Shown here in pieces: positions 1,717 to 19,021 of a stretch of DNA of 38,548 nt. The DNA comes from Nanohaloarchaea archaeon B1-Br10_U2g1 (GTDB lineage Archaea > Nanohalarchaeota > Nanosalinia > Nanosalinales > Nanosalinaceae): NCBI GenBank assembly GCA_001563875.1, contig LKMN01000006.1, positions 1 to 38,548 on the forward strand. Reading direction: 5' to 3'. Every line of letters begins with the position of its first letter. Position 1 is the first letter of the stretch. Under the pieces are notes generated by a model. It saw only the letters and a program-made list of their open reading frames with translations. It did not search any database and was not told where the DNA came from. The position numbers and the translations under genes were made by a program.

Positions 1717-3120
1717 ATGATTGACAGGGCAGATGACCCGGACAACACACGGAAAGAAGATAGATCAGTATTCCAAAGAAACGCTGAAAGACTTAGAGCG
1801 GACGGAGGAACAATGGATGAGGGAACAGAAGACCTACCTCAGAAGACAAAAGGTGTAGAAACCACTCATGAAGAAGTAAGCTCTCAAAATGGAGAGTCAA
1901 CCCAGCAAGGGAACGGAAACAGTTCCGGAATAGTTGAGAAAGCGGAGAGAAGTGTCAAAGAGCTTATAGGCTCTAACAGACCGACAAGCATGTTCGGTAA
2001 ACAGACACCTACAGAAGAATCCAGAGAATCACATAAAGAAAGCTATGAATCAGGTCTAGATTTAGACCTGCAGGAAGCAAGTAAAGCAGTAGACAACGTA
2101 GGAGCAGATGTCCAAGACTGGAACAAAGACAGACAGGAACTCGAACTCACAATGCAGAAAGCAAGAATGGAGTTCGAAAGCAAACTCGGAGAGAGAACCA
2201 AAGCATTAGGTAAAGAGATAGGAAAAGTTCAGAGATGGGCGGAGTCGCCTCTAGACCAAGACCTCGCTTATGAAGCAGATCCTAACAGAGGTTCTTTCAG
2301 TTTCGGAGAGTATGAAGATCTTGGACTTTCAGAGTTTGTAGACGTTCTTTCAAACGAAGCAGAAGAAGCAGACCAGCTCTACACACACAGACAGGAACAG
2401 ATCGCTGAACTAGGAAAAGAGCTAGACCAAATGAAAAAGAACGATGTAGGAATCGAAGACTCTGAAGAGCTTGCAGCAAACAAAGGTATAGGAACTGACT
2501 CAAAAGAGATCTCAGACTACGAGAGAAGAGCAGTAAAGAGCAGAAGAAAAGAAGTATCTGACGAAATCGAGATGCACAGAAACAAGAAAGATGAGCACGA
2601 ACAGGACTTCGTTTCATACACAACTGAAGCAGAATCTGTCTACAGAGACCATGCTGCTGAAGTAGGTGACTACATTGCCGATGCTGCAGGAGCACTACAG
2701 GAGACAACAGAAATGCTTGAAGACTTCTCAGAGGTCGAAATACCTGTGATGGAGGATGAAATAGCAGATATAGCGCCTGAAGAAGTATCCGGCAAACTGC
2801 TTGATGATGGAGAACAAGAAGTAAGAGAAGAGTACAGAGACGCAGTCAACGCTTTAGGAGTCAAGGCCGCTCAACAGTACAAACAGGTTGAAAACGCATT
2901 GAACGAGCTTGAAGAAATTGAGGCAGGTATGGAAGATGACTACTTTGGAGATGTCAAGAGAAGCGACAAACTAAGAAGTAAGGTGGATGAAGTCTCAGGC
3001 AACGGAGATGCTTACGAACAACACTTGACAGAAACAGTGAATGAAGCTTTAGGAGATGAGTACGCGGCAAGTGACACAATTAGAAACGTATTCCGAGGTA
3101 TTGAGCCTGAAATAGAATAA
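1717..3120 (+). CDS. Large acidic coiled-coil protein, paralogue of 28893-30134
   Basis: Family not recognised; 467 residues. It starts MIDRADDP, followed by a polar, probably disordered region (about 1-85), the motif RPTSMFGKQ (about 90), then almost continuous charged helix with coiled-coil character. The C-terminal part holds ALGVKAAQQY, a helix with ENALNELEEIE, and DYFGDVKRSDKLRSKVDE. Each has a counterpart in the same order in the 413-residue protein at 28893-30134 (MIERADRP, RPTSRFGRQ, ALGETATDQY, RYFTGLSRSDKLRDVLD). No signal peptide, membrane helix or cysteine, so it is probably cytoplasmic. AGGTGA (1704-1709) lies 7 nt before the ATG, and TTTAATTA (1672-1679) could be the TATA box. 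Function unknown; a structural or scaffold role is a guess. Confidence 0.75.
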   Translation: MIDRADDPDNTRKEDRSVFQRNAERLRADGGTMDEGTEDLPQKTKGVETTHEEVSSQNGESTQQGNGNSSGIVEKAERSVKELIGSNRPTSMFGKQTPTEESRESHKESYESGLDLDLQEASKAVDNVGADVQDWNKDRQELELTMQKARMEFESKLGERTKALGKEIGKVQRWAESPLDQDLAYEADPNRGSFSFGEYEDLGLSEFVDVLSNEAEEADQLYTHRQEQIAELGKELDQMKKNDVGIEDSEELAANKGIGTDSKEISDYERRAVKSRRKEVSDEIEMHRNKKDEHEQDFVSYTTEAESVYRDHAAEVGDYIADAAGALQETTEMLEDFSEVEIPVMEDEIADIAPEEVSGKLLDDGEQEVREEYRDAVNALGVKAAQQYKQVENALNELEEIEAGMEDDYFGDVKRSDKLRSKVDEVSGNGDAYEQHLTETVNEALGDEYAASDTIRNVFRGIEPEIE

Positions 3121-3146: not shown

Positions 3147-4178
3147 TTATTTTAATCTTATATCTAGACAGACACGGTCGATATATGCAGCTCTCTCGCC
3201 ACATACAGTTCTTTCAACAATTTGGTGCTCTCTATCGGCGGCTTCGCTCGCTTTCTCTATCTCGTCTTCAATTATGCTCCAGTTCCTTTCTTCCAAGAAA
3301 CGATAATAGTGAACAATACCGCCTTTTTTTGTATGCTTGAACGCGAGATCAACGTAATCTTGTGAGGAGCCAGGCAGAGGCATTATTATCCGGTCAAAAG
3401 TGTTGAGATTAGGTAAAATATCTTTGACGTCGCCTTCAACTACTTCGACAGTGTCTTCAACGTTGTTTAGACTAATATTTTCCTCCTGGAATCTTACGGC
3501 TTCTGGATTTTTCTCAACTGACACGACCTTATTAGGATTTGATAGTCTGGCTGCCATGATGCTGAAAGGTCCTACTCCTGAAAACATTACAAGGACCTTT
3601 TCGCCATCATTTATCTGGTCGATAACTCTTTTTCTTTCTGTACTGAAACGTTCTGAAAAGTATGTCTTGGTAGGGTCTACTCTATAACGACAGTCGAACT
3701 CGGTGTGAGTGGTTTCTGTCTTTTCGCCGTATAGTTTTTCGTACTCTCCGACTCTGAACTCTCCTTTCAATCCTTCCTTCTTGAGCATAATGGTCTCCAC
3801 ATGAGGATTGTGGTGTAGTATACCTTCCACTGCTTCAGAACTCTTTACGTTGTTGAGATCGTTTATAACAGCTATATCTCCAATCAGTTCGTAAGAAGGC
3901 GTTTTAAACTCTTTCTGTTTTTCATCCTCTTTAATAACTGATATATCGTTCTCTAATTCTTCTTTAATATCGTGGAGTTCTTCATCAACGAAAATTTTCT
4001 CATCAGTCTCTACCTGACCTTTTATCTGTTCTTTAGAGTATTTTTCGGATGAAAAAACCTTTAAAACAAGGTCTGTGGTATCTTTCCCGGCTTTAAACGT
4101 GTTTTCGTCTTTATCTAGTTCAAAGCCTTGTTTACAGAAAAGTTCTTCAACACGGTTCTCAAGTTTCTCCTGTCTCAT
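3147..4178 (-). CDS. trm5: tRNA (guanine37-N1)-methyltransferase Trm5
   Basis: Probable class I SAM-dependent methyltransferase making m1G37 next to the tRNA anticodon, a modification that prevents frameshifting and feeds wyosine synthesis in archaea. The Trm5 hallmarks are all present: YFSERFSTER (173-182), SAM-binding loop MFSGVGPFS (198-206), acidic residue of motif II in VSVEKNP (219-225), and MPLPG (266-270) at the usual NLP/PLP catalytic motif. The core is preceded by a D2-like region (about 60-160). The N-terminal 60 residues diverge from the usual D1 domain. Length of 343 residues fits archaeal Trm5. It is transcribed away from dph5 across a 45-bp gap. Confidence 0.88.
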   Translation of the reverse strand: MRQEKLENRVEELFCKQGFELDKDENTFKAGKDTTDLVLKVFSSEKYSKEQIKGQVETDEKIFVDEELHDIKEELENDISVIKEDEKQKEFKTPSYELIGDIAVINDLNNVKSSEAVEGILHHNPHVETIMLKKEGLKGEFRVGEYEKLYGEKTETTHTEFDCRYRVDPTKTYFSERFSTERKRVIDQINDGEKVLVMFSGVGPFSIMAARLSNPNKVVSVEKNPEAVRFQEENISLNNVEDTVEVVEGDVKDILPNLNTFDRIIMPLPGSSQDYVDLAFKHTKKGGIVHYYRFLEERNWSIIEDEIEKASEAADREHQIVERTVCGERAAYIDRVCLDIRLK

Positions 4179-4223
4179 AAGGGTTTAGTTAAAGAGTTTT
4201 TACCTGAAAAATACTTTAACAGT
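4179..4223. promoter_or_regulatory. Shared trm5/dph5 divergent promoter region
   Basis: Only 45 bp separate the two divergent start codons. The stretch is AT-rich and holds TTAAAG (4189-4194) and CTTTAA (4214-4219) elements that could act as TATA boxes on either strand. Both transcripts must be leaderless or nearly so. Which element serves which gene cannot be decided by eye. Confidence 0.45.
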
Positions 4224-4928
4224 ATGTTATACTTGATAGGTCTAGGACTAGACAATAATGAAATCACTGTTAAAGGTTTAGAAGCGGTCAAATCCGCTGA
4301 AAAAGTGTATGCAGAGTTCTATACTAATACGGAGAATATAGATCTTGGAAAAATTGAGGAAAAGACAGGGAAAGAGATAGATGTACTCGGCCGTGAGGAT
4401 GTAGAACAAGAAGACCTTGTTCTCGAATCAGCGGAAAAGAGAGACACAGCGTTCCTAGTATCGGGAGACCCGCTTACAGCAACAACTCATTACGGCATAA
4501 AACACCGTGCCGAGGAGAAAGATATAGAAACAGAAGTGGTTCATGCGCCCTCAATCTTTACAGCTATAGCTGAAACCGGTTTAAACGTATACAAGTTTGG
4601 AAGAACAGTTACTCTCCCTAAAAATGCGTCTCCAAGCTCTATCACCGAATATATAGAGAAAAATAACTCTATAGGATTGCATACTTTGATACTTCTGGAT
4701 ATAGACTTTCCGGCCTCAGAAGCTGCGGAAAAACTTAAAGAAATGGATTCAGAACTTACAGAAAGACGGGCCATAGTGCTTGAAAGAGCTAATAGAGAGA
4801 ACCAGAAAGTAACTAAAGGAAAGCTAGGAATGTTATCAGAGAAGGACTTTGGTGAAACACCTCACTCAATAATCATTGTAGGAGAAACCTCTCATATGGA
4901 AGAAGAGTTCTTGGATAGCCATGAATAA
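4224..4928 (+). CDS. dph5: Diphthine synthase Dph5
   Basis: SAM-dependent methyltransferase that methylates the diphthamide precursor on a histidine of elongation factor 2. The start is set at the ATG of MLYLIGLGLD, which matches the family N-terminus exactly; an in-frame ATG at 4128 would add a non-homologous extension reading into trm5. The protein is 234 residues, slightly short for the family (about 250-265). Visible motifs: GLGLD (6-10), the Gly-rich SAM site VSGDPLTATTHYGI (79-92), and HAPSIFTAIAETGLNVYKFG (107-126), typical of archaeal and eukaryotic Dph5. The stop overlaps the start of the DUF357 gene, so the two are likely an operon. Its presence implies Dph2 elsewhere in the genome. 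Confidence 0.97.
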   Translation: MLYLIGLGLDNNEITVKGLEAVKSAEKVYAEFYTNTENIDLGKIEEKTGKEIDVLGREDVEQEDLVLESAEKRDTAFLVSGDPLTATTHYGIKHRAEEKDIETEVVHAPSIFTAIAETGLNVYKFGRTVTLPKNASPSSITEYIEKNNSIGLHTLILLDIDFPASEAAEKLKEMDSELTERRAIVLERANRENQKVTKGKLGMLSEKDFGETPHSIIIVGETSHMEEEFLDSHE

Positions 4929-5157
4929 GACACAGGAACAACTGGAGCAAGAGACCAAGAAGTGGCTGGACAGACTTGAAGAAAGAATAGAGAGAAGAGA
5001 CAGCTCTGTTGAACAGATGGAAAACGTTCTGGCTTATCGGGATGATACATACCATTTTTTAGACGAAAAAGACTTTATCCGGGCCTGGGAAGCCGTAATA
5101 TATGCTTGGGGTATATTAGAAACCTTGGAGAGACTGGGAAAGTTTGAGACCGAATAG
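4921..5157 (+). CDS. DUF357-family small protein
   Basis: Encodes 78 residues of mostly helix. The second half, with DEKDFIRAWEAVIYAWG and LGKF, matches the pattern of the archaeal DUF357 family (a growing-phase helix, A..A..YA.G.LD, then G). The family's function is not established, and the assignment rests on pattern recognition by eye. The ATG overlaps the end of dph5 by 8 nt, so the two are translationally coupled. No cysteine, signal peptide or membrane helix, so cytoplasmic. The N-terminal half is Glu/Arg-rich and probably pairs as a helical hairpin with the second half. Confidence 0.72.
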   Translation: MNKTQEQLEQETKKWLDRLEERIERRDSSVEQMENVLAYRDDTYHFLDEKDFIRAWEAVIYAWGILETLERLGKFETE

Positions 5158-5188: not shown

Positions 5189-5470
5189 ATGGGCTGGACA
5201 GATGATCCATGGAAGTATCCTGCCTTCACAGTTGCAGGTATAGCAGCTTTCGTTACAGCAGATATTACTGGTCCAATTATATCAACCAATGTAGGACTTG
5301 AAGACTGGATTGGAGAGTATATAGCTGCAGGTTTGGCAGGAATCCTTTTCGGCTTCGTGATTGATGACATGGTCCCGGCATACATAGCACAGAAGAAAGG
5401 AGGCTCCTCCGACTTTGGAGGAGGCGGAGATGACTTTGGAGGAGGCGGAGATGAGTTCGACTTCGAGTAG
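5189..5470 (+). CDS. Small two-helix membrane protein with DFGGGGD repeat tail
   Basis: Not recognised; 93 residues. Two hydrophobic segments (about 13-33 and 46-68) span the membrane, and the tail is soluble. The tail repeats DFGGGGD twice and ends DEFDFE, coded by a perfect 21-bp tandem repeat (5411-5452). The flexible, acidic Gly-rich tail looks like a binding or spacer segment. The last 20 nt overlap the start of the next membrane gene in another frame, implying coupled translation. It may belong with the membrane proteins at 5451-9858 that precede the pilus ATPase. Confidence 0.7.
   Translation: MGWTDDPWKYPAFTVAGIAAFVTADITGPIISTNVGLEDWIGEYIAAGLAGILFGFVIDDMVPAYIAQKKGGSSDFGGGGDDFGGGGDEFDFE
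5411..5452 (+). repeat. Perfect 21-bp tandem repeat, two copies
   Basis: The unit, beginning GACTTTGGAGGAGGCGGAGA, occurs at 5411-5431 and again at 5432-5452 without a mismatch. It encodes the DFGGGGD repeat of the upstream protein. In the +1 frame it also supplies in-frame ATG codons ahead of the next gene, which confuses start prediction there. Confidence 0.95.
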
Positions 5471-5900
5471 GATAGCTCTACTAATGATTTTTACTCTGTT
5501 AGTATCTGGATTAGCGGTCTCCCATAACCATCATACTAGCTCTGTATATGATCAAACAAGTTTCGAACTACCTCAGTACGATACACATGAGGAGGTTCTT
5601 ATAGAGTTTGTTGCTCCTTTTTTGTTTGTATCTATCCTTCTTACTCTGTCTTACGGCAAAGTTCTGCATGCTATCTTTAAAGATAAAGATGAAACTCCTT
5701 ACGCCAGTCCTTACTGGGTTGAAGAGGAGGAAAAGCCGAATGTTAAACGTTATGCTGTTCTACTAGGCTTTTTGACCACGGCGGTAATAGTTCCTACGGA
5801 GTTCTGGGGATGGATTCAGCTAGCTATAAGTTCCATAGGGGTAATAGTTACGGCAGCCTTTGCGCTATTAGTGGTCTACATTATATATTTGATGAGGTAG
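5451..5900 (+). CDS. Multi-pass membrane protein, unknown
   Basis: 149 residues from the chosen ATG at 5451; an ATG at 5415 lies inside the tandem repeat of the previous gene and adds only acidic repeat-coded residues. It opens with SSTSSRIALLMIFTLLVSG, a signal peptide or first membrane helix, followed by a His-rich HNHH segment and an acidic outer loop. Further helices lie at about 50-70, 100-118 and 122-147, near the end. A short cytoplasmic or outer loop (about 75-95) is charged and holds PYASPYW. No family recognised. It overlaps the preceding gene and ends 43 bp before the large coiled-coil gene at 5944, which has its own promoter. Confidence 0.6.
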   Translation: MSSTSSRIALLMIFTLLVSGLAVSHNHHTSSVYDQTSFELPQYDTHEEVLIEFVAPFLFVSILLTLSYGKVLHAIFKDKDETPYASPYWVEEEEKPNVKRYAVLLGFLTTAVIVPTEFWGWIQLAISSIGVIVTAAFALLVVYIIYLMR

Positions 5901-5914
5901 CTGTGATAAATTCT

Positions 5915-5921
5915 TATAAAA
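5915..5921 (+). promoter_or_regulatory. TATA box for the 5944 coiled-coil gene
   Basis: TATAAAA is centred 26 bp before the ATG at 5944, within a longer A/T run. No SD-like sequence lies between, so the mRNA is probably leaderless. Confidence 0.65.
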
Positions 5922-5943
5922 TAAAAAGCATTAATACTGTCCT

Positions 5944-7689
5944 ATGGAATCCGAACTAAGACGTAAGTTTATCTTTTTGAGTTTAACAGTTATTTTCGTA
6001 TCCGGTTTCGTGGCAGCACAGACTCCGGGAGGAGGTGTAGGAGGAGCACCGAGCGTAACAGGTTTCTTAGATGATATAGCTATGGGTGTCAACGATGCCA
6101 TAAGCTGGGATACAGGCAACACCTGGGAAGCAATGCTGTTAAACGTTATATTGCCGGCATTAGGTATTTATGCTGCAGCAAGGTTTGTTATAGGTAAAGG
6201 ATTCCACTATGCTGAAGCAAACTTCCAAGAAAGAACAAGTCTAGGATCAAGCGAACTTGGAGATACTGCCGAATGGTCTGCAAGAATACTTTCTGCCATA
6301 ACAGCTATCTGGGCGGTAGTTGCCTGGGGAGCTTTCATTGCAGTATACTGGTACATAGCGGGACTGCTGTTCCTAATCTTTCTGTTGTGGATACTGATAA
6401 CCGGAGGAATAGGTGTTATGTCTCCGTTCCCCGAACTATCTCTGGGGATTGGACGTTCCGGAGGAAGTAACGGAGACAATATGGCTCCGGAAGTCGAGAA
6501 AGAAATCAGAGAGATAGCGGATGAAAATCAAAGACTCAGAGACGAACTTAACCAAGTTAGAGAGCAGGAAAAAACCGATGAAGAACGTATAAACAGCGGA
6601 GATGAAGGACCGGAAGAAGCCGAGTCTCATATACGTACAGAGCTAAAAGAACTCTCACAGATAGAAAAACAGATATCAGAAGTTGAGAAAGAAGTAGAGA
6701 CTATTGAGGCGCAGATAAAAAGCCAAGAACAAGAGACGGAGCAAGAAGAACAGCACGAGCAACAGCTTCTACAAAAACTCGAAGCTCAACAAAAGAAGTT
6801 CAAAGAGACACTCCAACAGATAGAAGCTTATGAAGAGAAGACTATTGAAAACCAGAACGGCATAGACCAAATGCTGAACAGTTTGAAGCAGTCCAATCAA
6901 GTCAACAAAGACGCTATCCAAGAAGATTTAGCTTACAATCTTGACAATCTGGTCCAGATTGACAATATGCTTGAAAGCTTGAGTGAAATGGAGCAACAAG
7001 AATTTCAAGAGCTGAAAACGGCTTTAGAAGAGGAAAAAGAGGTTCTGTCTAATTTAGAGGCTCAAAAACAGGAAATTTTGGCTTTAGAAGACCAAGTCAA
7101 ACAGTTATTTAAGGAGATAGATATTTTGGAAAGCTGTTTCGAGGCAGAAGAAGATATAATAAGCCAGGCTGAAAGGCTTGCTCAGCAAGTGAAGGACAGA
7201 GAAGACTACCAGAAACTAGAGGAAGATGAGAAGATAATAGAAGACTTAGAGAGCAAATTCAACAGTATTTTAAATGAAGAAAACAAGATTAGAGAAAGAA
7301 TAGAAGAGCTTAAGGAGATAGAGGAGTACGAGAGAAATCAACATCAGCAGATAATTAATGAGCTTCAAGAGCTGGAAAAAAGCTTCGAAAAAACCCGTCA
7401 AATGCTTATCCAAATTGACGAGCTTATTACAGAGTTCCAAGAGGAAGTAAACAGAGAGATTAATGGAGCTAACTTCGAAACTCAGGCAGAATCTGTTTAC
7501 CACAACAAAGCTAACCGGAGAGGCGAGAACGATTTCCAGTTGATACAGCAAAAATTCCAAGACTCTGTAATGCTTTCCAACCAAATAAAGGCGGAGTTGG
7601 AGGGTGATGGAGGACAGGGAATGATTTCTCTAATACAAGATATGGAGACGTATCTTGGTAATTATCTTAAGGAGATAGGATCAAAATAG
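5944..7689 (+). CDS. Membrane-anchored long coiled-coil protein
   Basis: Not recognised; 581 residues. Residues 8-25 form a signal peptide ending GFVAAQ, followed by a Gly/Pro-rich stretch. Hydrophobic helices follow at about 63-83 and 115-157 (probably two passes). Residues 180 to about 565 are nearly pure charged helix rich in Glu, Gln and Lys, with heptad spacing of Leu/Ile, so a rod tens of nanometres long is expected. The rod most likely faces the cytoplasm if the C-terminal helix pair ends inside, but topology is uncertain. One cysteine (about residue 399). It lies just before a minus-strand gene and upstream of the small membrane genes leading to the pilus ATPase, so a scaffold or tether for that machine is plausible but unproven. 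Confidence 0.75.
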   Translation: MESELRRKFIFLSLTVIFVSGFVAAQTPGGGVGGAPSVTGFLDDIAMGVNDAISWDTGNTWEAMLLNVILPALGIYAAARFVIGKGFHYAEANFQERTSLGSSELGDTAEWSARILSAITAIWAVVAWGAFIAVYWYIAGLLFLIFLLWILITGGIGVMSPFPELSLGIGRSGGSNGDNMAPEVEKEIREIADENQRLRDELNQVREQEKTDEERINSGDEGPEEAESHIRTELKELSQIEKQISEVEKEVETIEAQIKSQEQETEQEEQHEQQLLQKLEAQQKKFKETLQQIEAYEEKTIENQNGIDQMLNSLKQSNQVNKDAIQEDLAYNLDNLVQIDNMLESLSEMEQQEFQELKTALEEEKEVLSNLEAQKQEILALEDQVKQLFKEIDILESCFEAEEDIISQAERLAQQVKDREDYQKLEEDEKIIEDLESKFNSILNEENKIRERIEELKEIEEYERNQHQQIINELQELEKSFEKTRQMLIQIDELITEFQEEVNREINGANFETQAESVYHNKANRRGENDFQLIQQKFQDSVMLSNQIKAELEGDGGQGMISLIQDMETYLGNYLKEIGSK

Positions 7690-7702
7690 AAAAGGAGAAG
7701 AA

Positions 7703-8176
7703 TTAACTAAGGAAGCTTCTTACTTGTCCCCATACTGAGTCGGATCTGCTGAAAGTCTCTTCTAAGGAAGAGGATGTTTTACTGTTCAAAGATGCTCTCC
7801 TTGATTCTGCTGTTCCTTTTGGTGTGTTATCGTCGATTATATCGATGCCAAGTTTTTTGGCTGTTTCTTTGACTCCTCCTATCTTGTAGCCGTTACATTT
7901 GACTGCGGTGGTTGCTCTGGAGGCTGCATCATAGGCTTCAGACACGGTCTCTTCGTAGATGCTTGGTTCTTCTGAAGTTTCTATCTTGTCTACTCCCAGT
8001 CTTTCTGTCACTTCGTCTAGAGTTGTTTCATAGGACTTTCTGTCGGTAACTGCGGTGCCTGTTTCATCGTATACTTCTGATGCGTCGAAGTCCTCTACGG
8101 TTTCGTACTCTCTTTGAGCTTCGGGTTTTATGGTTCCGGCGTCTTCTCTTCCAGCGTGGTTGTATTCGATTATCAT
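7703..8176 (-). CDS. Hypothetical acidic soluble protein
   Basis: Not recognised; 157 residues, no signal peptide or membrane helix, one cysteine (KCNGYKIGG). The first half is rich in Glu, Thr and Asp. The middle (about 75-120) contains a possible small alpha/beta unit, CNGYKIGGVKETAKKLGIDI. The tail is Ser-rich. TTTATAAATATAG on the minus strand lies about 27 bp upstream of the ATG (around 8200-8210), giving a leaderless transcript. It is a lone minus-strand gene between two plus-strand membrane units. Confidence 0.55.
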   Translation of the reverse strand: MIIEYNHAGREDAGTIKPEAQREYETVEDFDASEVYDETGTAVTDRKSYETTLDEVTERLGVDKIETSEEPSIYEETVSEAYDAASRATTAVKCNGYKIGGVKETAKKLGIDIIDDNTPKGTAESRRASLNSKTSSSLEETFSRSDSVWGQVRSFLS

Positions 8177-8327
8177 TGTTATGTGTAAGTAGTAACACTC
8201 TATATTTATAAATCTTACCTGTGTCTCTGGCTTGAAACAACCGAAAATATACCTTCTACGCAGTTATAACTCCCAATTATTTAAACCAAAAACATGTTAT
8301 TAGGTAGTATAGAGGTATGCCAAAAAG

Positions 8328-8465
8328 ATGATTGAAAGCTTAATCCAAGCTATTATAGACAATCCTGACGTTGCAGGTCTAGCACTGTTAATAGGTTTCT
8401 TTGCAGGTTCTATGTACCAAAAACGTAAGATGAGAAAAAGAGGAATGGGAGGAATGGGCTTCTGA
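8328..8465 (+). CDS. 45-residue single-helix membrane peptide
   Basis: Reads MIESLIQAIIDNPDVAGLAL, a hydrophobic stretch to about residue 29, then MYQKRKMRKRGMGGMGF. The strongly basic end should stay in the cytoplasm. GAGGT (8311-8315) lies 12 nt before the ATG, and ATTTAAAC at about 8278-8285 fits a TATA box. An ATG at 8317 opens only a 4-codon frame. It ends 12 nt before the next membrane gene, so it probably leads the operon 8328-9858. Function unknown. Confidence 0.6.
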   Translation: MIESLIQAIIDNPDVAGLALLIGFFAGSMYQKRKMRKRGMGGMGF

Positions 8466-8477
8466 AGGTGTTAAAAA

Positions 8478-8729
8478 ATGAAGAGAGCTAAATTCCACGA
8501 ATACTTATACGAAGTTGAAAACTGGGTCGACGAGTTCGCGATAGCCTTTCTATCGTTCGGAGCTATAGCGGTCATAATCAACGCTATATTCTTTGCTCCA
8601 GGAGATGTCAACTTCCTATCGCTAGGAGAGCTAATCTATCCTTGGATCGTAATGCTTGCATTAATGATTATAGGAAGAGAGCTGTGGCTCCTCAACAGGA
8701 ACTTGAGGGCTTACGCAGAAGGTGAGTAA
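8478..8729 (+). CDS. Small two-helix membrane protein
   Basis: 83 residues, not recognised. Amphipathic basic/aromatic N-terminus (MKRAKFHEYLYEVENW), membrane helices at about 19-41 and 47-67, then a short Arg/Asn-rich cytoplasmic tail. GGTG lies 10 nt before the ATG. It follows the 45-residue peptide gene by 12 nt and precedes the GTG-started gene at 8735 by 5 nt, so it belongs to a compact operon of four membrane proteins upstream of the pilus genes. Confidence 0.7.
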   Translation: MKRAKFHEYLYEVENWVDEFAIAFLSFGAIAVIINAIFFAPGDVNFLSLGELIYPWIVMLALMIIGRELWLLNRNLRAYAEGE

Positions 8730-8734
8730 GTAAA

Positions 8735-9343
8735 GTGGAAGCCTCAGGGTTCAACCAACTGCTACAGAACATGGCGCAGCAGGACTTCTTCACAGGGATT
8801 TTCCCTTTCCTACTATCCTATATAATATTCTTTTTAGCACTACAGAAGACACCTATATTTAGTGAACAGGAGAACAAGAGATACTCTGCTCTAGTAGCGG
8901 TTATATTCGCGTTCTTTGTGTCATATGCTGTAGTAATGAACCCTGTATACCAAGAGTTCTTCCACAGCTACTTGTCTAGTATAGTAATAGGTATGGTAGG
9001 TCTACTAGGTTTCCTAGTGTTCCTAACGTTTATACCTGGCTTTGACCTAGATAACGCAGGAGCCCGAGGACTTGTAGCTCTAGTTGTATTAGGGAGCTTT
9101 GCAGCTTTCATATTTTCTGGAGGCATGTCTGCCTTCATCCCTGTAGATGTAGGTCTGCCAGGACTGGAATATGGACTGGCAGAGGTCCTAGATTATATAT
9201 TTGAGTCGGGACTGATCTATCTAATAATTATAGGAGCAGCTTTGGCCTGGGTAACCTCTGACGGAGGAGACGGAGACTGGGGAAAGAAAGCTAAGGATGC
9301 AGGAGGATACATGATAAGGCCTGTGGGTCACGGCGGTGGTTAA
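8735..9343 (+). CDS. Polytopic membrane protein, paired with 9346-9858
   Basis: 202 residues, GTG start 5 nt after the previous stop. About five hydrophobic helices (roughly 18-37, 50-70, 78-100, 108-130, 155-170), with a Gly/Asp-rich tail ending HGGG. Residues about 25-70 (LALQKTPIFSE then YSALVAVIFAFFV) line up with residues about 20-60 of the next protein (VLQKQEIFEE then SLSVAFLSIGGF). Both have a membrane helix, LQK..IF.E turn and second helix, so they look like ancient paralogues. No enzyme motif. The context suggests a membrane part of the pilus-like machine. Confidence 0.7.
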   Translation: MEASGFNQLLQNMAQQDFFTGIFPFLLSYIIFFLALQKTPIFSEQENKRYSALVAVIFAFFVSYAVVMNPVYQEFFHSYLSSIVIGMVGLLGFLVFLTFIPGFDLDNAGARGLVALVVLGSFAAFIFSGGMSAFIPVDVGLPGLEYGLAEVLDYIFESGLIYLIIIGAALAWVTSDGGDGDWGKKAKDAGGYMIRPVGHGGG

Positions 9344-9345
9344 CA

Positions 9346-9858
9346 GTGTTTGAGAATATTGTATTATCTATGCAGGATATGAGTATTTTCCATCTATTCC
9401 TGCCTTGGTTACTTGTTCTAACGGTTACTTATGGAGTACTTCAGAAACAGGAAATATTTGAGGAAGAAGCTGTAACAGCTGCTACATCTCTATCTGTAGC
9501 ATTTCTATCGATAGGAGGCTTCTACTTCTTTGTTCCTCCAGAGATGTTCAGCCATTTCGCCGCAGTGATAGGATTCGCAATTTTCGGTTTCATAGGTCTA
9601 TTCTTACTGCTGGCAGTGGTTGGAGTAGATATAACAGAGTTTGAAGACGTTGAAAGAAGGTTTCCTGCGATAGCAGCAGCAAGTATAGCTGTTCTCGGAG
9701 CTTTAGGAGTTTTAACTTATCAGTATAATCTATTGGGTCTTCTACCGGAGTTAAGCGAGTTGACAACGTTATCGATAGACTTCGATCAACATGTAATGCC
9801 GATTTTAACTCTTCTGTTCCTACTAGCTATAGTAATATTTGTTGCTAGAGGAGAATAG
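9346..9858 (+). CDS. Polytopic membrane protein, likely paralogue of 8735-9343
   Basis: 170 residues, GTG start 2 nt after the previous stop. Five membrane helices at roughly 12-32, 42-62, 67-90, 103-124 and 148-167. The N-terminal pair shares the LQK..IF.E turn with the preceding protein. A short charged loop, DITEFEDVERRF, sits between helices 3 and 4. No cysteines or catalytic motif. It ends 8 bp before the convergent coiled-coil gene. The two proteins may form a hetero-oligomer in the membrane, but this is inference from pairing and co-transcription. Confidence 0.7.
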   Translation: MFENIVLSMQDMSIFHLFLPWLLVLTVTYGVLQKQEIFEEEAVTAATSLSVAFLSIGGFYFFVPPEMFSHFAAVIGFAIFGFIGLFLLLAVVGVDITEFEDVERRFPAIAAASIAVLGALGVLTYQYNLLGLLPELSELTTLSIDFDQHVMPILTLLFLLAIVIFVARGE

Positions 9859-9866
9859 AAACTATT

Positions 9867-10676
9867 TTACCACTCCTCTAGATCTACTTTATCTATATCT
9901 TCTTGGCTAACTTCGGAACTTGTCTCTATACCTCGTTCTTGTTTGATCTCCTGTACAAGGTCTGTTAGTTCTCTAACATTGTCGACAAGTGATGGAAGTA
10001 CTTGCTGGAAAGCCTTTTCAAGTCCTCCTATACGAGACTGGTAAGAGTCTATATTGTCTTCAATCTCGTCCATTTTCTGTATGAACTGTGTCTGATCTTC
10101 GTCATCTCTGACCTCGAGATCATGTACCCTCTGATCCAGCTCTTCAACCTTCTCTTTGACTTCATCTATCTCTCTGTAGACGTTTTCGAACTCGGCTTCT
10201 ACCATCTCAAAGTTCTCCGCTACAATAGTCTCTACAAGCTCTTCTACACCCGTATTTTGTACGTTTTGACCTTGGGGTGCGGCCTGTTGATCTCTCTGCA
10301 TATTCATCTGTGGTTCTTGAGATATATCTTGTCCTGGGTTCATTTCTTCTTGTTCTTGGTTGTTGAAGTCTTCATCCATAGGGCTTACTGCCTCTTCTCC
10401 GCCGCTGTATGGTTCCATAGGTTTAGGTCCTTCTTCGAAGCTATCTCCTGCTGCGGATGAGGTAACCGCTCTATTGATAGCTTGCTGTATCTCTGAACGG
10501 GAGTACTGTCCGTCAAGCTCGTCTTGTATCTCTCCTTCGGAGTAGCCCTGAGAAAACATTCGTTCCACAGTCCTTTCAAGTCCGCTACCCATAGATATAT
10601 CTGCTGTATTACTGTCTTGTGTAGGTTCTTTAGAGGAGTCCTCGTCTTTCAGTCTTCCGAACAGCTGAAATTTCAT
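9867..10676 (-). CDS. Coiled-coil protein with ArlC/D-like C-terminus
   Basis: 269 residues, cytoplasmic. Residues about 38-70 form a small three-helix unit (MFSQGYSEGEIQDEL, then SRSEIQQAI) resembling the short helical repeats often seen in DPANN proteins. A Gln/Asn/Met-rich linker (about 95-140) follows, then a coiled coil (about 143-250). The segment LEKAFQQVLPSLVDNVREL is reminiscent of the ArlC/FlaC-type coiled coils that form the cytoplasmic ring of the archaellum motor; this is pattern memory, not a search. It overlaps the upstream coiled-coil gene by 4 nt (ATGA) and is divergent from the secretion ATPase. It may form a scaffold under the ATPase. Confidence 0.65.
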   Translation of the reverse strand: MKFQLFGRLKDEDSSKEPTQDSNTADISMGSGLERTVERMFSQGYSEGEIQDELDGQYSRSEIQQAINRAVTSSAAGDSFEEGPKPMEPYSGGEEAVSPMDEDFNNQEQEEMNPGQDISQEPQMNMQRDQQAAPQGQNVQNTGVEELVETIVAENFEMVEAEFENVYREIDEVKEKVEELDQRVHDLEVRDDEDQTQFIQKMDEIEDNIDSYQSRIGGLEKAFQQVLPSLVDNVRELTDLVQEIKQERGIETSSEVSQEDIDKVDLEEW

Positions 10677-11140
10677 AATTTGTTACCTTTCCGTTCTTTT
10701 TCCTTAGTACTGGCTTGGTTTTCCAGCCTTTTTATCTTTCTGTCTATAAGCCTTTTGACTTCACGTTTTGAGACCGTTTTTTCTTCTTCTACAATCTTTT
10801 TTACCTGTTTTTCGGTTACGAAAGAAGATTTTATAGGGTTCATAAGGTCTATGTAGTTCTCCATTTCGTCGAGCTCTTGATTGGTCACAAACTTCTTTTT
10901 CTCCCGGTTAAGCTCTTTTATATCGACCTCCATGTTCGCTATACGGTCTCTAAGCTCGGAAATCTCGTCTTCTAGGTCTTGTATACTTCTGTTAGTGTCT
11001 TTGTTCTTTTTGAGAACTGTATCGTCTAAAGTATTGACTCGGGCGTTGAGGTTACGTATATTCTCTTCAAGATCTCTGACTCTTCTGTTGAAATCGTTGA
11101 CCCTGTTCACAATCCGGTTCAAAAGGTCTTGTTGCGCCAC
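10673..11140 (-). CDS. Coiled-coil protein with ArlC/E-like motif
   Basis: 155 residues, GTG start (an out-of-frame ATG lies 2 nt upstream). Residues 1-80 are a continuous coiled coil. Then comes FVTNQELDEMENYIDLMNP and SSFVTEKQVKKI, a motif that resembles the NPF-containing region of ArlC/FlaC and related archaeal pilus scaffolds, and a basic tail. A TATA-like TTATTATT on the minus strand (about 11164-11171) lies 27 bp upstream. The gene is divergent from the ATPase at 11182 with only 41 bp between, and its stop overlaps the start of its partner. The assignment to the archaellum-type scaffold class is tentative. Confidence 0.62.
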   Translation of the reverse strand: MAQQDLLNRIVNRVNDFNRRVRDLEENIRNLNARVNTLDDTVLKKNKDTNRSIQDLEDEISELRDRIANMEVDIKELNREKKKFVTNQELDEMENYIDLMNPIKSSFVTEKQVKKIVEEEKTVSKREVKRLIDRKIKRLENQASTKEKERKGNKL

Positions 11141-11181
11141 ATCTTTTATTCTAGAAAGCCTTGAATAATAATTAACGGGTT

Positions 11182-13443
11182 ATGGCTGTAAGAGAAAAAG
11201 ACGTTTTCGAATACGAGTACGATGATGAGACAGGAACTATAGAGATCAATCTACTTGGATCTGTATACGGAGCATCTATAGAAGACTATCCTGAAGTGAT
11301 GTCTCGGGTAATAAACATTCTTCAGGAGGTGCCGGACGCATCGTCAGTAGTTCTGTCGGAATCCCGAGATTATGAATACAGTGATACTCAGGTAGAGATG
11401 CTTAAAGAGGTCGCAGAAGCCATAAGAGATATATCAAGTCAGGGATATATATCAAAAAACGTTAGAACTGATAAATGTGAGAGCCTTTACCAAGAAAAGC
11501 TTCCTGAGGTCCAAAGAATAGTTATAGACGACCTGAGAAAAGATCCGATAGGCGCATACGTACAGCTTAAACGTATGATACGCCATCTAAACCAGGAAAA
11601 AGAGGATTCATATCCTCAGAGAAAACGCTGTATAAAATACTTTATACAGGATGTTCTGAAACCGGTATCCGGACGTCTAGAGGAGACGCACTTAATACAG
11701 CAGTCTGTAGAGCTTGACTATATAACCGGCCACCATGTAGGAGACAGAGAGGTCTACAGAGAGTTCTTCCATCCTTTAGTAAGACCTAACTTCATGCTTA
11801 CAAAGTTCATGTCGTTGCCTCCTGAGAGAGGGGAGGAGGTTGACAGATACAGGGTTCAGGAAGATGTAGAGGTCTCGGTATACCGGGTCCCGGACCAGGT
11901 ACAGCCTATTTACCACGTGAATCCTCCAGAGTTCAATCTTCCTGAGGAAAAATATCGTTTGCTTGATGCGGCAAGAAGGTTTTTGGCCTCTCACAACCCG
12001 GAGTCAGGAGAGTTCGCTAGGCCCGAGAGAATGCGCCAAGTGTTCCAGAATATAGGAAGAGATATGGTCAGGGATATTTCCGACCAGATGGGTATACAGA
12101 TATCCGGAGAGGAGTTAGAACAGTTAACAGCAATACTTAACCGTTATACTTCAGGGCTCGGCGTGCTTGAACTACTTCTCTCTGATCCAAAGGTTCAGGA
12201 TGTTTATGTAAACTCTCCGATAGGTAATGCACCGATATATATCTCTCATCAGGACTACGAAGAATGTGAAACAAATCTAATCCCTACGAAAGAGGAGGCA
12301 GAGTCATGGGCCACAAGGTTCCGTATACAGTCAGGACGCCCGTTGGATGAAGCAAACCCTGTGCTGGATACGGATACAGAGGTTCCGGGAGGCCGTGCAC
12401 GTGTCGCAATAATACAGGAGAACCTTTCGCCTGAAGGGCTAGCGTTTGCGTTCAGAAGACACCGGTCCCGAGCCTGGACGCTACCATTGTTTGTTGACAG
12501 CGGAATGATTAACCCTCTAGGCGCAGGGCTTCTATCTTTCATTGTTGATGGAAACCGGTCGGTACTGTTTGCAGGTACTCGTGGCGCCGGTAAAACATCG
12601 CTCCTGTCAGCGTCGATGCTGGAGATACTGAAGAAACACAGAATTGTGACTGTTGAAGATACTTTAGAACTTCCTGTTAAACAGATGAAGGACTTAGGGT
12701 ATAACATAGAGAGTATGAAGTCTCGTTCTGTTATTACACAGGTTGAGAACGAGCTTGCTGCTGAAGAAGCAATTAGAACATCCTTGAGGCTTGGAGATTC
12801 TGCACTTGTTATTGGAGAGGTTCGTTCTGATGAGGCAAAAACTCTTTATGAGGCTATGCGTGTCGGAGCGGTCGCAAACTTTGTCGGAGGAACAATACAC
12901 GGTGAAGACGCTTATTCAGTATTCGACAGAGTCGTTAACGACCTAAATGTTCCAAAAACTTCTTTCAAGGCAACAGATATCATTGTAAGCGTAAACAAGA
13001 TCAAGAGTCCTGACGGCCTATCGACCTTTAGAAGGGTCACGGGAATAACAGAGGTTAGAAAAGAGTGGACTGATGACCCGCAGGAAGAAGGAGCGTTTGT
13101 AGATCTCATGCGGTACGACAGTAACGAAGACAAACTTGTGCCTACAGATACGCTGCTGAACGGCGAATCACTAGTTTTGAACAGGATAGCTAGTAATATC
13201 AGAGAATGGAAAAACAACTGGGAGGCAGTATGGGACAATATACAGCTCCGTAAGCAGATAAAACAAGACATTGTCCAAAAAGCAGAGGAAACAGATAATA
13301 AAGAACTTTTAGAGGCAGAATTCACTGTCAAATCAAATCAGAGATTCCATATACTTTCAGAGAGAGTTAGGGAGGAGTACGGCGAACAAAACACCGAAAG
13401 AGTTCTAGTAAGATGGAGAGAATGGCTAGAACAACAATTATAG
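11182..13443 (+). CDS. Type IV pilus/archaellum-type secretion ATPase
   Basis: Hexameric ATPase of the GspE/TadA/ArlI superfamily that powers pilin insertion at the inner face of the membrane. All motor motifs are visible: Walker A GTRGAGKT (465-472), Asp box VEDTLELP (491-498), Walker B LVIGEVR (542-548) and His box GTIHGED (570-576). The 753 residues exceed ArlI (about 530) because of a long N-terminal region (1 to about 250) that should bind partners. It is followed 9 bp later by the membrane platform and then the pilins, so it heads a long operon. Whether it drives pili, a secretion system or a motor is not shown. No retraction ATPase (PilT) or second ATPase is present in the window. Confidence 0.95.
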   Translation: MAVREKDVFEYEYDDETGTIEINLLGSVYGASIEDYPEVMSRVINILQEVPDASSVVLSESRDYEYSDTQVEMLKEVAEAIRDISSQGYISKNVRTDKCESLYQEKLPEVQRIVIDDLRKDPIGAYVQLKRMIRHLNQEKEDSYPQRKRCIKYFIQDVLKPVSGRLEETHLIQQSVELDYITGHHVGDREVYREFFHPLVRPNFMLTKFMSLPPERGEEVDRYRVQEDVEVSVYRVPDQVQPIYHVNPPEFNLPEEKYRLLDAARRFLASHNPESGEFARPERMRQVFQNIGRDMVRDISDQMGIQISGEELEQLTAILNRYTSGLGVLELLLSDPKVQDVYVNSPIGNAPIYISHQDYEECETNLIPTKEEAESWATRFRIQSGRPLDEANPVLDTDTEVPGGRARVAIIQENLSPEGLAFAFRRHRSRAWTLPLFVDSGMINPLGAGLLSFIVDGNRSVLFAGTRGAGKTSLLSASMLEILKKHRIVTVEDTLELPVKQMKDLGYNIESMKSRSVITQVENELAAEEAIRTSLRLGDSALVIGEVRSDEAKTLYEAMRVGAVANFVGGTIHGEDAYSVFDRVVNDLNVPKTSFKATDIIVSVNKIKSPDGLSTFRRVTGITEVRKEWTDDPQEEGAFVDLMRYDSNEDKLVPTDTLLNGESLVLNRIASNIREWKNNWEAVWDNIQLRKQIKQDIVQKAEETDNKELLEAEFTVKSNQRFHILSERVREEYGEQNTERVLVRWREWLEQQL

Positions 13444-13452
13444 GCGTTAAAA

Positions 13453-15606
13453 ATGGATGAAGATAGAGAGGACAAGATCAAAGACATAGTAGATAAGCTT
13501 GACAGAGATCTTGAGATGCCTCCCTACAATACGTCCTCGAAAGAGGGTTACTCTCGAGAATACCAGAAGTACAGGAAAGAGGAGAGAGAAGAGGTTGAAA
13601 CCTCAAGCTTTGAGGAGCTATGTCTGACTTCGGGAGACCTCCTAAACCTCAAAGCAGGTAAGAAGACCAGAGAACGTCTAGGACCTCCTCTAAGACTGCT
13701 GGGGTGGGATATAACACCTGGCATGGTTCTGTCTGCAGCCGTCATGGTGGGTTTCGTGTCATTCTTTGGATGGTTCTTGCTCTTCGCTTTAAATGCGTTT
13801 TTAGGTTTCTTTATTCCGATCTCTATAATCCTTATTTCAGTATTTATTCCGATAGGAGCCGGTGTTTATACCTATTTCAAGCCAATCTACCAGGCCGAGA
13901 ACAAGGTTATAAGGAGCAGCGGGGAGATGATCCTCACAATACTCTACATGGTCATCTACATGCGTAGCTCTCCAAACCTAGAAGGAGCTATCAGGTTTGC
14001 GGCATTAAATCTTGAAGGTCCTGTTTCAAAAGATCTTAGAGGCGTATTATGGGATTTAGAGGTTGGGAAGTACAATAAAATAGAAGAAGCGTTAGAGAAT
14101 TATACTGTTAGGTGGAAGGGTTACAACGACGACTTTCTTGAATCTTTACAGCTTCTTAAGGCTTCAGTAAACGAGCCAAGTCCTCAAAGAAGAGAAGATC
14201 TTCTACAGGACTCAATAGATCGTATACTTGAGGGCACACAGGAAAATATGAAGCACTATGCGCAGGGTCTCAAGACACCGGTAATGATACTTAACGCTGT
14301 TGGAGCTATGCTTCCGGTCCTAGGTATGATAATGTTGCCTCTTGTTTCTGTATTCCTCGGAGACTCTATCTCAGAGATGCATCTCATACTTCTCTTCAAT
14401 ATAATGCTTCCTGCATTCCTTTACTGGTTTATGCAGCGAATACTTTCTTCTAGACCACCTACAGTATCCTCAGAACCTACGAGTAATGGAAATCTGCCTC
14501 GTCTAGGTTATTATAACCTGGATTTATTTGGAAGAAGTTTTTCCGCACCTGTATGGCCCTTAGGAGTGCTTATATTTTCTATTGTTGGTCTTTATGGGGT
14601 TTTGGGATACGCAATTTTTCCTGAGGTCTATCCGGTCTCTGACGGAGCTGAATCCGCGCCCGCAATGTTTACGGATGGAGACTCTTACAGTCCATTAGCT
14701 ATGCTGATAAGAAGTCTAAGTATCACCGCAGGACTAGGATTAGCCATAGGTGTGGTTCTTTACATTGGAGGATTAGAGAGAAAGAAAGCTGAAGAAGAGA
14801 TAAGGAATATTGAGAAACAGTTCCCCACAGCGTTGTTCCAGTTAGGAAACAAGATTTCGGGCGGAACACCTATAGAATTAGCTCTGAAGCAGGCAAGAGA
14901 GTCGACAGAGGAGATGGAGATCTCAGGCTTATTCAGCTATACTCTCAGAAACATTACGGAGATGGGTATGACCTTTGATGAAGCGGTCTTTGATGAAGAC
15001 TACGGCGCTCTAAGGCACTATCCTAGTCAGATGATCCATACTGTTATGAAGGCGATTATGGAGTCCTCAGAGAAAGGTACTAAGATGGCTTCAATGGCGA
15101 TGATGACTATCTCAAGATACTTAGAGAACATACACCGTACACAAGAGAAACTGAATGATCTGATGGAAGAGACAACGACCACAATACTGATGCTTGGCTA
15201 TCTTTTAGCGCCTATTGTGTCTGGAGTAGCTGTAGGTATGAGCCAGACCATAATCACGGCTATGTTTGAGCTCTCTGAATCTTTCGATGACTCTATAGCA
15301 GGTACTCCTGAGGGCGACGTGGGAGATGCTGATACTGCGGCCGCAGGTGCAGACTTTTCGGGTATACTAGGTGACTTAGACGCTGCCATACCTCCTGAGG
15401 TGCTTCAGTTCGTTGTAGGTATATACTTGATACAGCTTTTATGGATACTAGGAACATTCTATACAAAGATTAGTGTTGGAGAAAACAAGACTGAGCGAAA
15501 TATCTTTGTAGGAAAAATACTTATTTCGGGAGTGTTCTTCTACAGTATAACGCTACTAATAGTAAGCTTGCTGTTTGGAGGCATAGTAACAAGCATAGAA
15601 CCATGA
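13453..15606 (+). CDS. ArlJ/TadC-type membrane platform with two T2SF domains
   Basis: 717 residues. Membrane helices at about 92-115, 117-140, 275-300, 308-330, 375-400, 415-440, 575-605, 650-670 and 685-715 surround two cytoplasmic T2SF bundles (about 150-270 and 460-570), the arrangement of archaeal ArlJ/PilC-like proteins. Conserved-looking segments are EMILTILYMVIYMRSSPNLE in the first and FPTALFQLGNKISGGTPIE in the second. The platform couples the ATPase to pilin polymerisation. An extracellular Ala/Gly/Asp-rich loop lies at about 615-645. Its stop overlaps the next ATG (ATGA), so the pilin-like genes are co-translated. Confidence 0.92.
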   Translation: MDEDREDKIKDIVDKLDRDLEMPPYNTSSKEGYSREYQKYRKEEREEVETSSFEELCLTSGDLLNLKAGKKTRERLGPPLRLLGWDITPGMVLSAAVMVGFVSFFGWFLLFALNAFLGFFIPISIILISVFIPIGAGVYTYFKPIYQAENKVIRSSGEMILTILYMVIYMRSSPNLEGAIRFAALNLEGPVSKDLRGVLWDLEVGKYNKIEEALENYTVRWKGYNDDFLESLQLLKASVNEPSPQRREDLLQDSIDRILEGTQENMKHYAQGLKTPVMILNAVGAMLPVLGMIMLPLVSVFLGDSISEMHLILLFNIMLPAFLYWFMQRILSSRPPTVSSEPTSNGNLPRLGYYNLDLFGRSFSAPVWPLGVLIFSIVGLYGVLGYAIFPEVYPVSDGAESAPAMFTDGDSYSPLAMLIRSLSITAGLGLAIGVVLYIGGLERKKAEEEIRNIEKQFPTALFQLGNKISGGTPIELALKQARESTEEMEISGLFSYTLRNITEMGMTFDEAVFDEDYGALRHYPSQMIHTVMKAIMESSEKGTKMASMAMMTISRYLENIHRTQEKLNDLMEETTTTILMLGYLLAPIVSGVAVGMSQTIITAMFELSESFDDSIAGTPEGDVGDADTAAAGADFSGILGDLDAAIPPEVLQFVVGIYLIQLLWILGTFYTKISVGENKTERNIFVGKILISGVFFYSITLLIVSLLFGGIVTSIEP

Positions 15607-15740: not shown

Positions 15741-15935
15741 ATGAAACGTAGAGGAGAAATGGGGATGCCGGTAAGAATTGTGGTGATGTTGGTGGCAGCT
15801 CTAGCAGTAGTTCTCATATTTTTAGCAGTGTTCATACCTGCAGTAGGTGGAGCAGAGGAGGCAACAGGCTGTGATGGAGCTCTAAGAGCGATATCGTCAG
15901 CAATAAGTAGTGCAATGGGAGAGCAGATATGCTAG
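15741..15935 (+). CDS. Small pilin-like protein with two cysteines
   Basis: 64 residues: basic MKRRGEMGMPVR, hydrophobic helix (about 13-36), then a short outer segment with cysteines at 44 and 64, the last residue. RRG is a possible class III cleavage site. The cysteine pair could form a loop disulfide. Gap to the previous gene is 3 bp, and its stop lies inside the next gene's first codons (7-nt overlap). Probably a minor pilin; function inferred from context only. Confidence 0.65.
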   Translation: MKRRGEMGMPVRIVVMLVAALAVVLIFLAVFIPAVGGAEEATGCDGALRAISSAISSAMGEQIC

Positions 15936-18368: not shown

Positions 18369-18572
18369 ATGAAGCCTATTCATGTAGTGGTCATGATTGT
18401 TCTGGCTTTAATTGTAGTATCTGCTTTATCCGCAGTTATGATAGGTGTTGAGTCTCCTCTTACATCAATTTTATCTAACTCTTCTGAGACCCAGACAGGT
18501 GTATCTCAGTGTCTAGACCAAAATCCTGACTACTCGTACCAAGACTGTCTCAGAGAGGTTGAAAACTCATGA
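18369..18572 (+). CDS. Small pilin-like protein with two cysteines
   Basis: 67 residues. MKPIH precedes a hydrophobic helix (about 6-30), and the short outer part carries SQCLDQNP and YQDCLREVE, two cysteines 12 residues apart that could form a disulfide loop. No clear class III cleavage site. Stop overlaps the next start (ATGA). Probably a minor pilin-like subunit. Confidence 0.65.
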   Translation: MKPIHVVVMIVLALIVVSALSAVMIGVESPLTSILSNSSETQTGVSQCLDQNPDYSYQDCLREVENS

Positions 18573-19021
18573 AAAAAGGTATAGCCGTCACTTCCAGCGT
18601 ATTCATACTTGTTACAGGAATAACCGCTATATTCGGGTTTGGGTTCGCCGTAGGTGTTATAGATAACTTTCTAGGTATGGAGTCTGATCTCCAGCAAAGC
18701 GAACAGCTTCATAACCTTCATGATAGTTTAGAAAATGCCTGCAGTAACGCTGAGGAGTTCGGAACCTTTTCAGATACTACTGAGGAGTACGAGTTTCCAT
18801 ATCTTGTCTCTCTAGGCGAAGAGAGCAATAGGTTTAGAGCGGAATTTGAAGAAGATGGTGAAACAGAGATTTGGGGCCCTGAACCGGTTGAAGGAGAGCT
18901 TGTGGAGTGCGACCTAGATATACAAGAGTTAACTGAAGAAGGAGCCTACAGATTTGAAATAGAGTCAAGTAACGGTGAAAATCCTACAGTTCAGGTTGAG
19001 CCGGTTGATGGAGATGCGTAA
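18569..19021 (+). CDS. Class III pilin-like protein with two cysteines
   Basis: 150 residues. MKKG then IAVTSSVFILVTGITAIFGF: cleavage after KKG, hydrophobic helix to about 30, heptad-like helix to about 60, then a beta-rich acidic head. Cysteines at ENACSN and VECDLD (two). The following gene starts 8 nt before its stop, in another frame. Likely a minor pilin of the same filament. Confidence 0.75.
   Translation: MKKGIAVTSSVFILVTGITAIFGFGFAVGVIDNFLGMESDLQQSEQLHNLHDSLENACSNAEEFGTFSDTTEEYEFPYLVSLGEESNRFRAEFEEDGETEIWGPEPVEGELVECDLDIQELTEEGAYRFEIESSNGENPTVQVEPVDGDA

Follow-up and report, generated by a model that had tools for sequence, protein, structure and literature searches.

What kind of machine is encoded by a row of membrane and coiled-coil genes that runs into a secretion ATPase gene in the genome of a nanohaloarchaeon? 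The row lies in a 38,548-nucleotide stretch (here, the window) of Nanohaloarchaea archaeon B1-Br10_U2g1, one contig (LKMN01000006.1) of a 0.71-Mb genome with a completeness of 96.75%, whose nearest named relatives are Nanohaloarchaea. The original prediction, made from the DNA letters, described a 581-residue coiled coil with a membrane anchor, together with five small membrane proteins and a pair of cytoplasmic coiled coils, at positions 5189-11140, and all of these open reading frames (ORFs) are present as stated. It grouped them with the ATPase and with two acidic coiled coils further downstream into one new pilus-type machine. We conclude that the locus, which extends from a DUF357 gene (4921-5157) to the last pilin gene ending at 23047, probably encodes a DPANN-specific form of the machine that assembles archaeal type IV pili (T4P). 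In it, a membrane protein family that we name TM5 would form a ring or stator, and two soluble coiled-coil proteins, ccA and ccB, a scaffold. We refer to TM5, ccA and ccB as the core.

Engine and core of the locus

The genes on which this reading rests are the following.

8735-9343, + strand: TM5 copy 1, small membrane protein of the core, in one family with 9346-9858
9346-9858, + strand: TM5 copy 2, small membrane protein of the core (alignment A2)
9867-10676, - strand: ccA, soluble coiled coil of the core (alignment A3)
10673-11140, - strand: ccB, soluble coiled coil of the core (alignment A4)
11182-13443, + strand: T4P/archaellum-type secretion ATPase, 753 aa, with an N-terminal extension of about 215 aa (profiles and AlphaFold2 fold)
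13453-15606, + strand: fused double TadC/ArlJ-type membrane platform, 717 aa (T2SSF, 28.7 bits; cut-off, 25.2)
15929-17965, + strand: class III-type surface protein, 678 aa, with a pilin-like N-terminus and a variable ectodomain (alignment A7)
18569-19021, + strand: pilin with a class III signal ([KR]G-hydrophobic signal scan)
18975-19400, + strand: pilin with a class III signal (same scan)
21861, 22188, 22534 and 22823 (span 21861-23047), + strand: pilin-like genes (signal scan)

The ATPase matched T2SSE at 56 bits (cut-off, 24.9), the NCBIfam archaellum motor model at 138 bits over residues 223-700, and TadA at 130 bits. The last two scores are both under the curated cut-offs, and with an archaellum motor equivalog cut-off of 550 the protein did not qualify as a FlaI equivalent. 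A profile search of the PDB returned archaeal GspE (2oap), CpaF and FlaI, with matches spanning at most residues 216-698, and found no solved relative by sequence for the first ~215 residues. An AlphaFold2 model of the ATPase, with a predicted local distance difference test (pLDDT) score of 84 and a predicted template-modeling (pTM) score of 0.65, had FlaI (E 1.3e-26) and archaeal GspE as its nearest PDB folds. A TadC homologue accompanies the ATPase in 106 of the 121 loci that make up our locus set. The strict class III signal scan picked out five ORFs in the 15.5-23.1 kb interval, compared with 84 of 5439 background ORFs; among them are signals at 21861 (KRKG/VSQ), 22534 (TKG/MSA) and 22823 (TRKG/VSQ), where the slash marks cleavage, and the pilin-like families of 21861-23047 are conserved downstream in nanohaloarchaea. 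The genome encodes one prepilin peptidase, a Peptidase_A24 gene over cut-off that sits in another T4P-like locus (G000:C23). Together, the ATPase, TadC, the five class III ORFs and the genome-encoded peptidase place the locus, as judged from sequence, in the archaeal T4P/archaellum superfamily.

The two genes at 8735-9343 and 9346-9858 are paralogues belonging to a widespread multicopy family, TM5, which is present in 74 of the 121 loci with one to five copies each. Where 6 kb or more of upstream sequence is available (79 loci), 56 loci have one to five TM5 copies upstream of the ATPase. No TM5 match was found in NCBIfam, and none over cut-off in Pfam. ccA and ccB follow on the opposite strand. 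ccA consists of an N-terminal helical hairpin (GxSxxxIxxxLxxxGYSxxxI), a Pro/Gln linker and a C-terminal coiled coil with an EKxFxxxLPxLTxNVxEL motif, while the ccB coil ends in YxDLxNPxxxxFVTxxE, so both carry motifs outside plain coil. Their best 19-residue hydropathy values (0.45 for ccA and 0.01 for ccB) indicate no transmembrane (TM) segment and no signal peptide. Since profile iteration drifted onto other coiled coils, ccA and ccB were counted from direct phmmer matches and adjacency only; where the upstream sequence spans 3 kb or more, ccA lies on the opposite strand between TM5 and the ATPase in 64 of 97 and ccB in 73 of 97. In Woesearchaeota-type genomes, 27 of the first 30 ccB genes compared are at most 1.5 kb from the ATPase gene. 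The resulting gene order, in which one to five TM5 copies precede the oppositely oriented ccA and ccB and these precede ATPase-TadC, is kept in loci from Nanohaloarchaea, Aenigmarchaeota, Woesearchaeota and records labeled Nanoarchaeota.

Independent distribution of these genes had been named in the original prediction as the observation that would count against it. For the core, we found the genes distributed together. Among 80 archaeal genomes, TM5 and ccB were each present in 30 of the 31 with a close ATPase relative versus 3 of the 49 without one (Fisher p 1.8e-17; these genomes are related and not independent, which inflates the p value, so that the counts carry the result). Of 100 Woesearchaeota-type genomes (the phylum of genome G044), 96 have the ATPase, 98 TM5 and 96 ccB, and both genomes that lack TM5 likewise lack the ATPase; this test covered the ATPase, TM5 and ccB, and the association of ccA is by adjacency. 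Several genomes retain TM5 and ccB on a contig separate from that of the ATPase, and this co-occurrence across contigs points to more than linkage. In three genomes (G021, G022 and G025), ATPase-TadC lies on one contig and a TM5-ccA-ccB block on another, next to a run of pilin-like genes with single TM segments, so the block moves as a unit. The engine is also conserved in sequence and the surface parts are variable: median identities are 77% for the ATPase, 63% for ccB, 62% for TadC and 60% for ccA, versus 25% for the 581-aa coil and 26% for the 678-aa surface protein. Collectively, the sequence comparisons identify TM5 (in several copies), ccA and ccB as stable partners of the ATPase.

Two observations concern ATPase genes elsewhere. 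Inteins with Intein_splicing and LAGLIDADG domains split the gene in several DPANN genomes, mostly near residue 490; the split frames in loci L073, L074 and L075 reach 1250-2003 aa, and long split frames of a similar kind occur in eight more genomes (G088, G090, G101, G125, G136, G153, G161 and G172). Five DPANN loci with a more distant ATPase and without TM5, ccA or ccB (L062-L066) have an exosortase/archaeosortase-like gene near the ATPase gene, with one of two tested scoring over the Pfam cut-off.

A working model and its alternatives

In the model that we favor, the ATPase hexamer would act on the TadC platform, adding or removing pilins, and TM5 paralogues would surround TadC as a membrane ring or stator. 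Transcribed divergently from the ATPase gene, ccA and ccB would provide a cytoplasmic coiled-coil collar or scaffold that positions or gates the ATPase. In Nanohaloarchaea, the membrane-anchored 581-aa coil would link the membrane ring to this scaffold, and the pilins and the 678-aa class III protein would build a lineage-specific surface filament and its tip. Assembly of a surface filament by the locus is a prediction, and the 678-aa protein a candidate tip protein or adhesin. Relatives of the latter share a CPGDxGYIQxNKGxP motif in a shallow alignment and had no Pfam matches. Because the machine is near-universal in the mostly symbiotic DPANN and its surface parts are variable, its likely use is attachment to a host archaeon. 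The cytoplasmic cage that was also proposed is neither supported nor excluded by these data.

Several observations weigh against this model. Many Woesearchaeota loci have no class III pilin gene downstream. The AlphaFold2 model of TM5 copy 2 is all-helical but of low confidence (pLDDT 77; pTM 0.45) and had no fold match in the PDB, which makes the ring or stator a guess. The more distant ATPase relatives often come without detectable TM5 (13 of 45 genomes at E 1e-60), so TM5 is not obligatory across the wider ATPase family. Conversely, two genomes (G097 and G177) carry a single TM5 copy and no ATPase match at 1e-60; these lone copies are possibly relics or reflect a separate use of TM5. Finally, profile searches with ccA and ccB return generic coiled-coil matches. 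Those to SMC, NheC, xenorhabdolysin, Med9 and sigma-1 were discarded as composition effects of coiled coils.

TM5, ccA and ccB might instead be the defining core of a host-contact apparatus of the DPANN group termed cluster 2, derived from a T4P, near-universal and previously unnamed, but not itself an ordinary pilus. It could, for example, underlie the attachment organelle or cone, as its base, that electron cryotomography (cryo-ET) has revealed in Nanobdella and YN1. We consider this rather unlikely.

An improbable alternative is that the locus encodes a divergent, true rotating archaellum used for swimming, with ccA and ccB as ArlC/E, TM5 as an accessory and the pilins as archaellins. The ATPase is indeed nearest to the archaellum motor model and to FlaI folds, and ccA reaches 28.9 bits against FlaC_arch (PF05377) as a whole protein, narrowly over the Pfam cut-off of 27.8. 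However, only 11 of 47 members of the ccA family match FlaC_arch, and an equal number match a generic coiled-coil model. In whole-genome searches, true FlaC proteins of archaellum-bearing genomes scored 64-85 bits over all 55 positions of the model, whereas ccA in nanohaloarchaea scored 16-20 bits with a partial match, a level that many unrelated coiled coils also reach. Comparison of FlaC by hhalign gave probabilities of 35% with ccA and 23% with ccB, little or no gain over the 26% obtained with an unrelated control coil. In addition, the ATPase score is far from the motor-model cut-off, and no ArlH/KaiC-type protein was found among the locus proteins scanned, where the PF06745 match is weak and confined to the ATPase itself. 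Homology of ccA and ccB to ArlC/E was rejected on these scores and controls, and the "ArlC/E-like features" ascribed to them at the outset reflect coiled-coil background only. A role analogous to that of ArlC/D/E, which does not imply homology, is possible.

PF05377 also has many sub-threshold and a few over-threshold matches among unrelated archaeal coiled coils. Automatic annotation of DPANN proteins as "FlaC" is therefore to be distrusted.

We also give little credence to the idea that the locus encodes a conserved, pseudopilus-like system for secretion or for uptake of DNA or nutrients, with TM5 as its channel. Near-universality hints at a housekeeping-like requirement, for example nutrient uptake, the absence of adjacent class III pilins from many Woesearchaeota loci agrees with such a function, multicopy TM5 would fit a channel, and DNA uptake by DPANN pili has been proposed (PMC9563170). 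On the other hand, the nanohaloarchaeal loci hold about five class III pilins plus a large variable surface protein, and no nuclease, DNA-binding or channel-forming component was identified in the locus besides one Alba gene. That the coiled coils and TM5 are mere positional neighbors, unrelated to the ATPase, is highly improbable and for the core largely refuted: colinearity makes adjacency within the nanohaloarchaeal family prove little, but beyond that family the flanks change while TM5, ccA, ccB and the ATPase remain together, and their co-occurrence persists across separate contigs. For the coiled coils at 24552-26976, such a positional explanation is possible.

Parts found only in Nanohaloarchaea and neighboring genes

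The remaining features of the region are these; aa counts are given where relevant.

5189-5470, + strand: small membrane protein, 93 aa (17 loci, all nanohaloarchaeal, position kept)
~5451-5900, + strand: 3-TM membrane protein, ~149 aa (17 nanohaloarchaeal loci; median identity, 28%)
5944-7689, + strand: 581-aa protein with a signal peptide ending in ..AQ, 3 TM segments and a ~400-aa coiled coil (alignments A5/A9; 17 loci)
8478-8729, + strand: 2-TM protein, 83 aa (21 nanohaloarchaeal loci; median identity, 55%)
24552-25538, + strand: acidic coiled coil (homologues between phosphoglycerate mutase and FEN1 genes in several relatives)
25588-26976, + strand: acidic coiled coil with a conserved C-terminal half, a lineage-specific neighbor
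4128-4928: DPH5
23048-24496: phosphoglycerate mutase (PGM)

The locus genes are real: as many as 18 further nanohaloarchaeal genomes have homologues with the gene order kept, and the core occurs in hundreds of DPANN genomes. That all of them form one module, as had been assumed, is not supported. The 581-aa protein and the small membrane proteins at 5189, 5451 and 8478 were found only in nanohaloarchaeal loci, although the ATPase is DPANN-wide. Thus, the five small membrane proteins all exist but are not equivalent: those at 8735 and 9346 are the widespread TM5 paralogues, and the other three are lineage restricted. The protein at 5189-5470 (median identity, 37%) matched neither Pfam nor NCBIfam, and the 3-TM protein probably starts at ATG 5451 rather than TTG 5415. 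One further gene, 7703-8176 on the - strand, is a strain-level feature with no homologue found beyond the sister genome.

Members of the 581-aa family diverge rapidly, and the coil of this protein is predicted to be cytoplasmic whether the protein has a cleaved signal plus three TM segments or four TM segments. In another family of the order (L199/L200), its position is occupied by a 278-281-aa TM5-like protein with a helical cytoplasmic tail, and these positional equivalents match the TM5 hidden Markov model (E 5e-8 and 2e-7). This match suggests that the membrane-anchored 581-aa coil may be a TM5 derivative. Profile comparison of its N-terminus with TM5 gave the right register at a probability of only 14%, and BLASTP did not link it to the L199 intermediate.

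Housekeeping genes flank the locus: a TRM5/TYW2 methyltransferase gene (3147-4178) and DPH5 on one side, and PGM and then FEN1 on the other, with DPH5, PGM and FEN1 named from their own sequences and agreement with a published gene list rather than by profile search. In the nanohaloarchaeal family, the whole stretch from TRM5/DPH5 to TopoVI is colinear, so the adjacency of the coiled coils at 24552-26976 is weak functional evidence. That at 24552-25538 is a positional neighbor in nanohaloarchaea with an unproven link to the machine. Of 19 genomes of the family, 18 have that at 25588-26976, which lies 12-20 kb beyond the ATPase gene when both are on a single contig; it was not found in the other families of the order.

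Two further paralogous coiled-coil proteins, of an unknown family, lie at opposite sides of the locus (1717-3120, + strand, and 28893-30134, - strand) and share 30% identity (E 1e-48) and an RPTSxFG motif. The Alba DNA/RNA-binding gene (21497-21790; 78 bits) sits within the row of pilin genes; its median identity of 78% makes it as conserved as the ATPase, and its position is kept in nanohaloarchaeal relatives.

Relation to known systems

The interval has been noted before. In cultivated nanohaloarchaea, a large "archaella-like" operon encoding as many as 22 hypothetical proteins was described (SVXNc_1003-31 and BNXNv_1067-93; PMC10266531); it lies between phosphoglycerate mutase (SVXNc_1002) and DPH5 (SVXNc_1032) and includes two assembly genes (SVXNc_1016-7). 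Because PGM and DPH5 also flank this interval in the window, and the ATPase and TadC genes lie in its middle, we take this operon to be the same locus. The main text of that paper leaves the hypothetical proteins unanalyzed and does not describe TM5, ccA and ccB, their distribution or the split between core and accessory parts. The machine predicted in the window is a pilus-type machine of unusual composition, as proposed, combining ATPase, TadC and class III pilins with TM5, ccA and ccB; to call it new was too strong, given its place in the T4P/archaellum superfamily and this earlier report.

Hamm et al. 2024 reported coiled-coil proteins (CCPs) at two cluster-2 DPANN T4P loci of Ca. Nanohaloarchaeum antarcticus and compared the CCPs to reovirus sigma-1 (6GAO) (PMC11291902). 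Those loci resemble ours in combining a CpaF-type ATPase, TadC and coiled coils, in Nanohaloarchaeota, Woesearchaeota, Aenigmarchaeota and others. They differ in that the gene numbers of the locus-2 CCPs are distant and that locus 1 carries Mpg/GroEL/GatE, unlike the locus described here. The ccA and ccB profiles also match 6GAO, but among many other coiled coils and hence generically. With this generic match, and being soluble and without signal peptides, ccA and ccB do not fit a reading as surface fibers. The coiled coils of our locus possibly correspond to the CCPs. A candidate match for the published CCP loci is the second T4P-like locus of the source genome (L076; G000:C23, ~7980-15500). 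It contains a 465-aa coiled coil, a TrmB/MarR-like winged-helix protein with a coil (299 aa), a 499-aa ATPase and two TadC-like proteins, and it also holds the sole Peptidase_A24 prepilin peptidase of the genome.

The archaellum (ArlCDEFGHIJ) resembles the locus in its ATPase, with ArlI/FlaI nearest by fold and sequence, in its platform protein and in having cytoplasmic coils beside the ATPase. The locus differs in its failed FlaC homology, the absence of ArlH among its scanned proteins, its fused double TadC and its multicopy TM5. The archaeal T4P clades of Makarova et al. 2016 (PMC4858521) share the secretion ATPase, TadC and class III pilins, and the halobacterial subclade 4F has an intracellular coiled coil (arCOG07564); a TM5-like membrane family is not named in the sections of that work available here. 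Makarova et al. 2019 (PMC6393860; Fig. 2A) described components of DPANN T4P "dark matter" islands that lack detectable similarity to other archaea and took the unknown proteins as diverse pilins, whereas TM5, with its multiple TM segments, and the soluble ccA and ccB are clearly not pilins. We found no description of TM5, the core/accessory split or the near-universality of the core in the open-license papers searched. On present evidence, the locus represents a conserved form of the archaeal T4P machine, most of it without annotation, rather than a categorically new system.

DPANN archaea depend on host contact, and a published cryo-ET study states explicitly that the proteins making that contact are unknown (PMC11420986). 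With the ATPase, TM5 and ccB in 96-98% of 100 genomes of one large phylum and ccA adjacent, the core is a conserved candidate for how tiny, mostly symbiotic archaea build surface filaments; TM5, ccA and ccB lack database annotation. The core offers concrete families for tagging, imaging or depletion in existing co-cultures, and the comparison distinguishes a conserved engine from rapidly changing surface components, which could determine host range.

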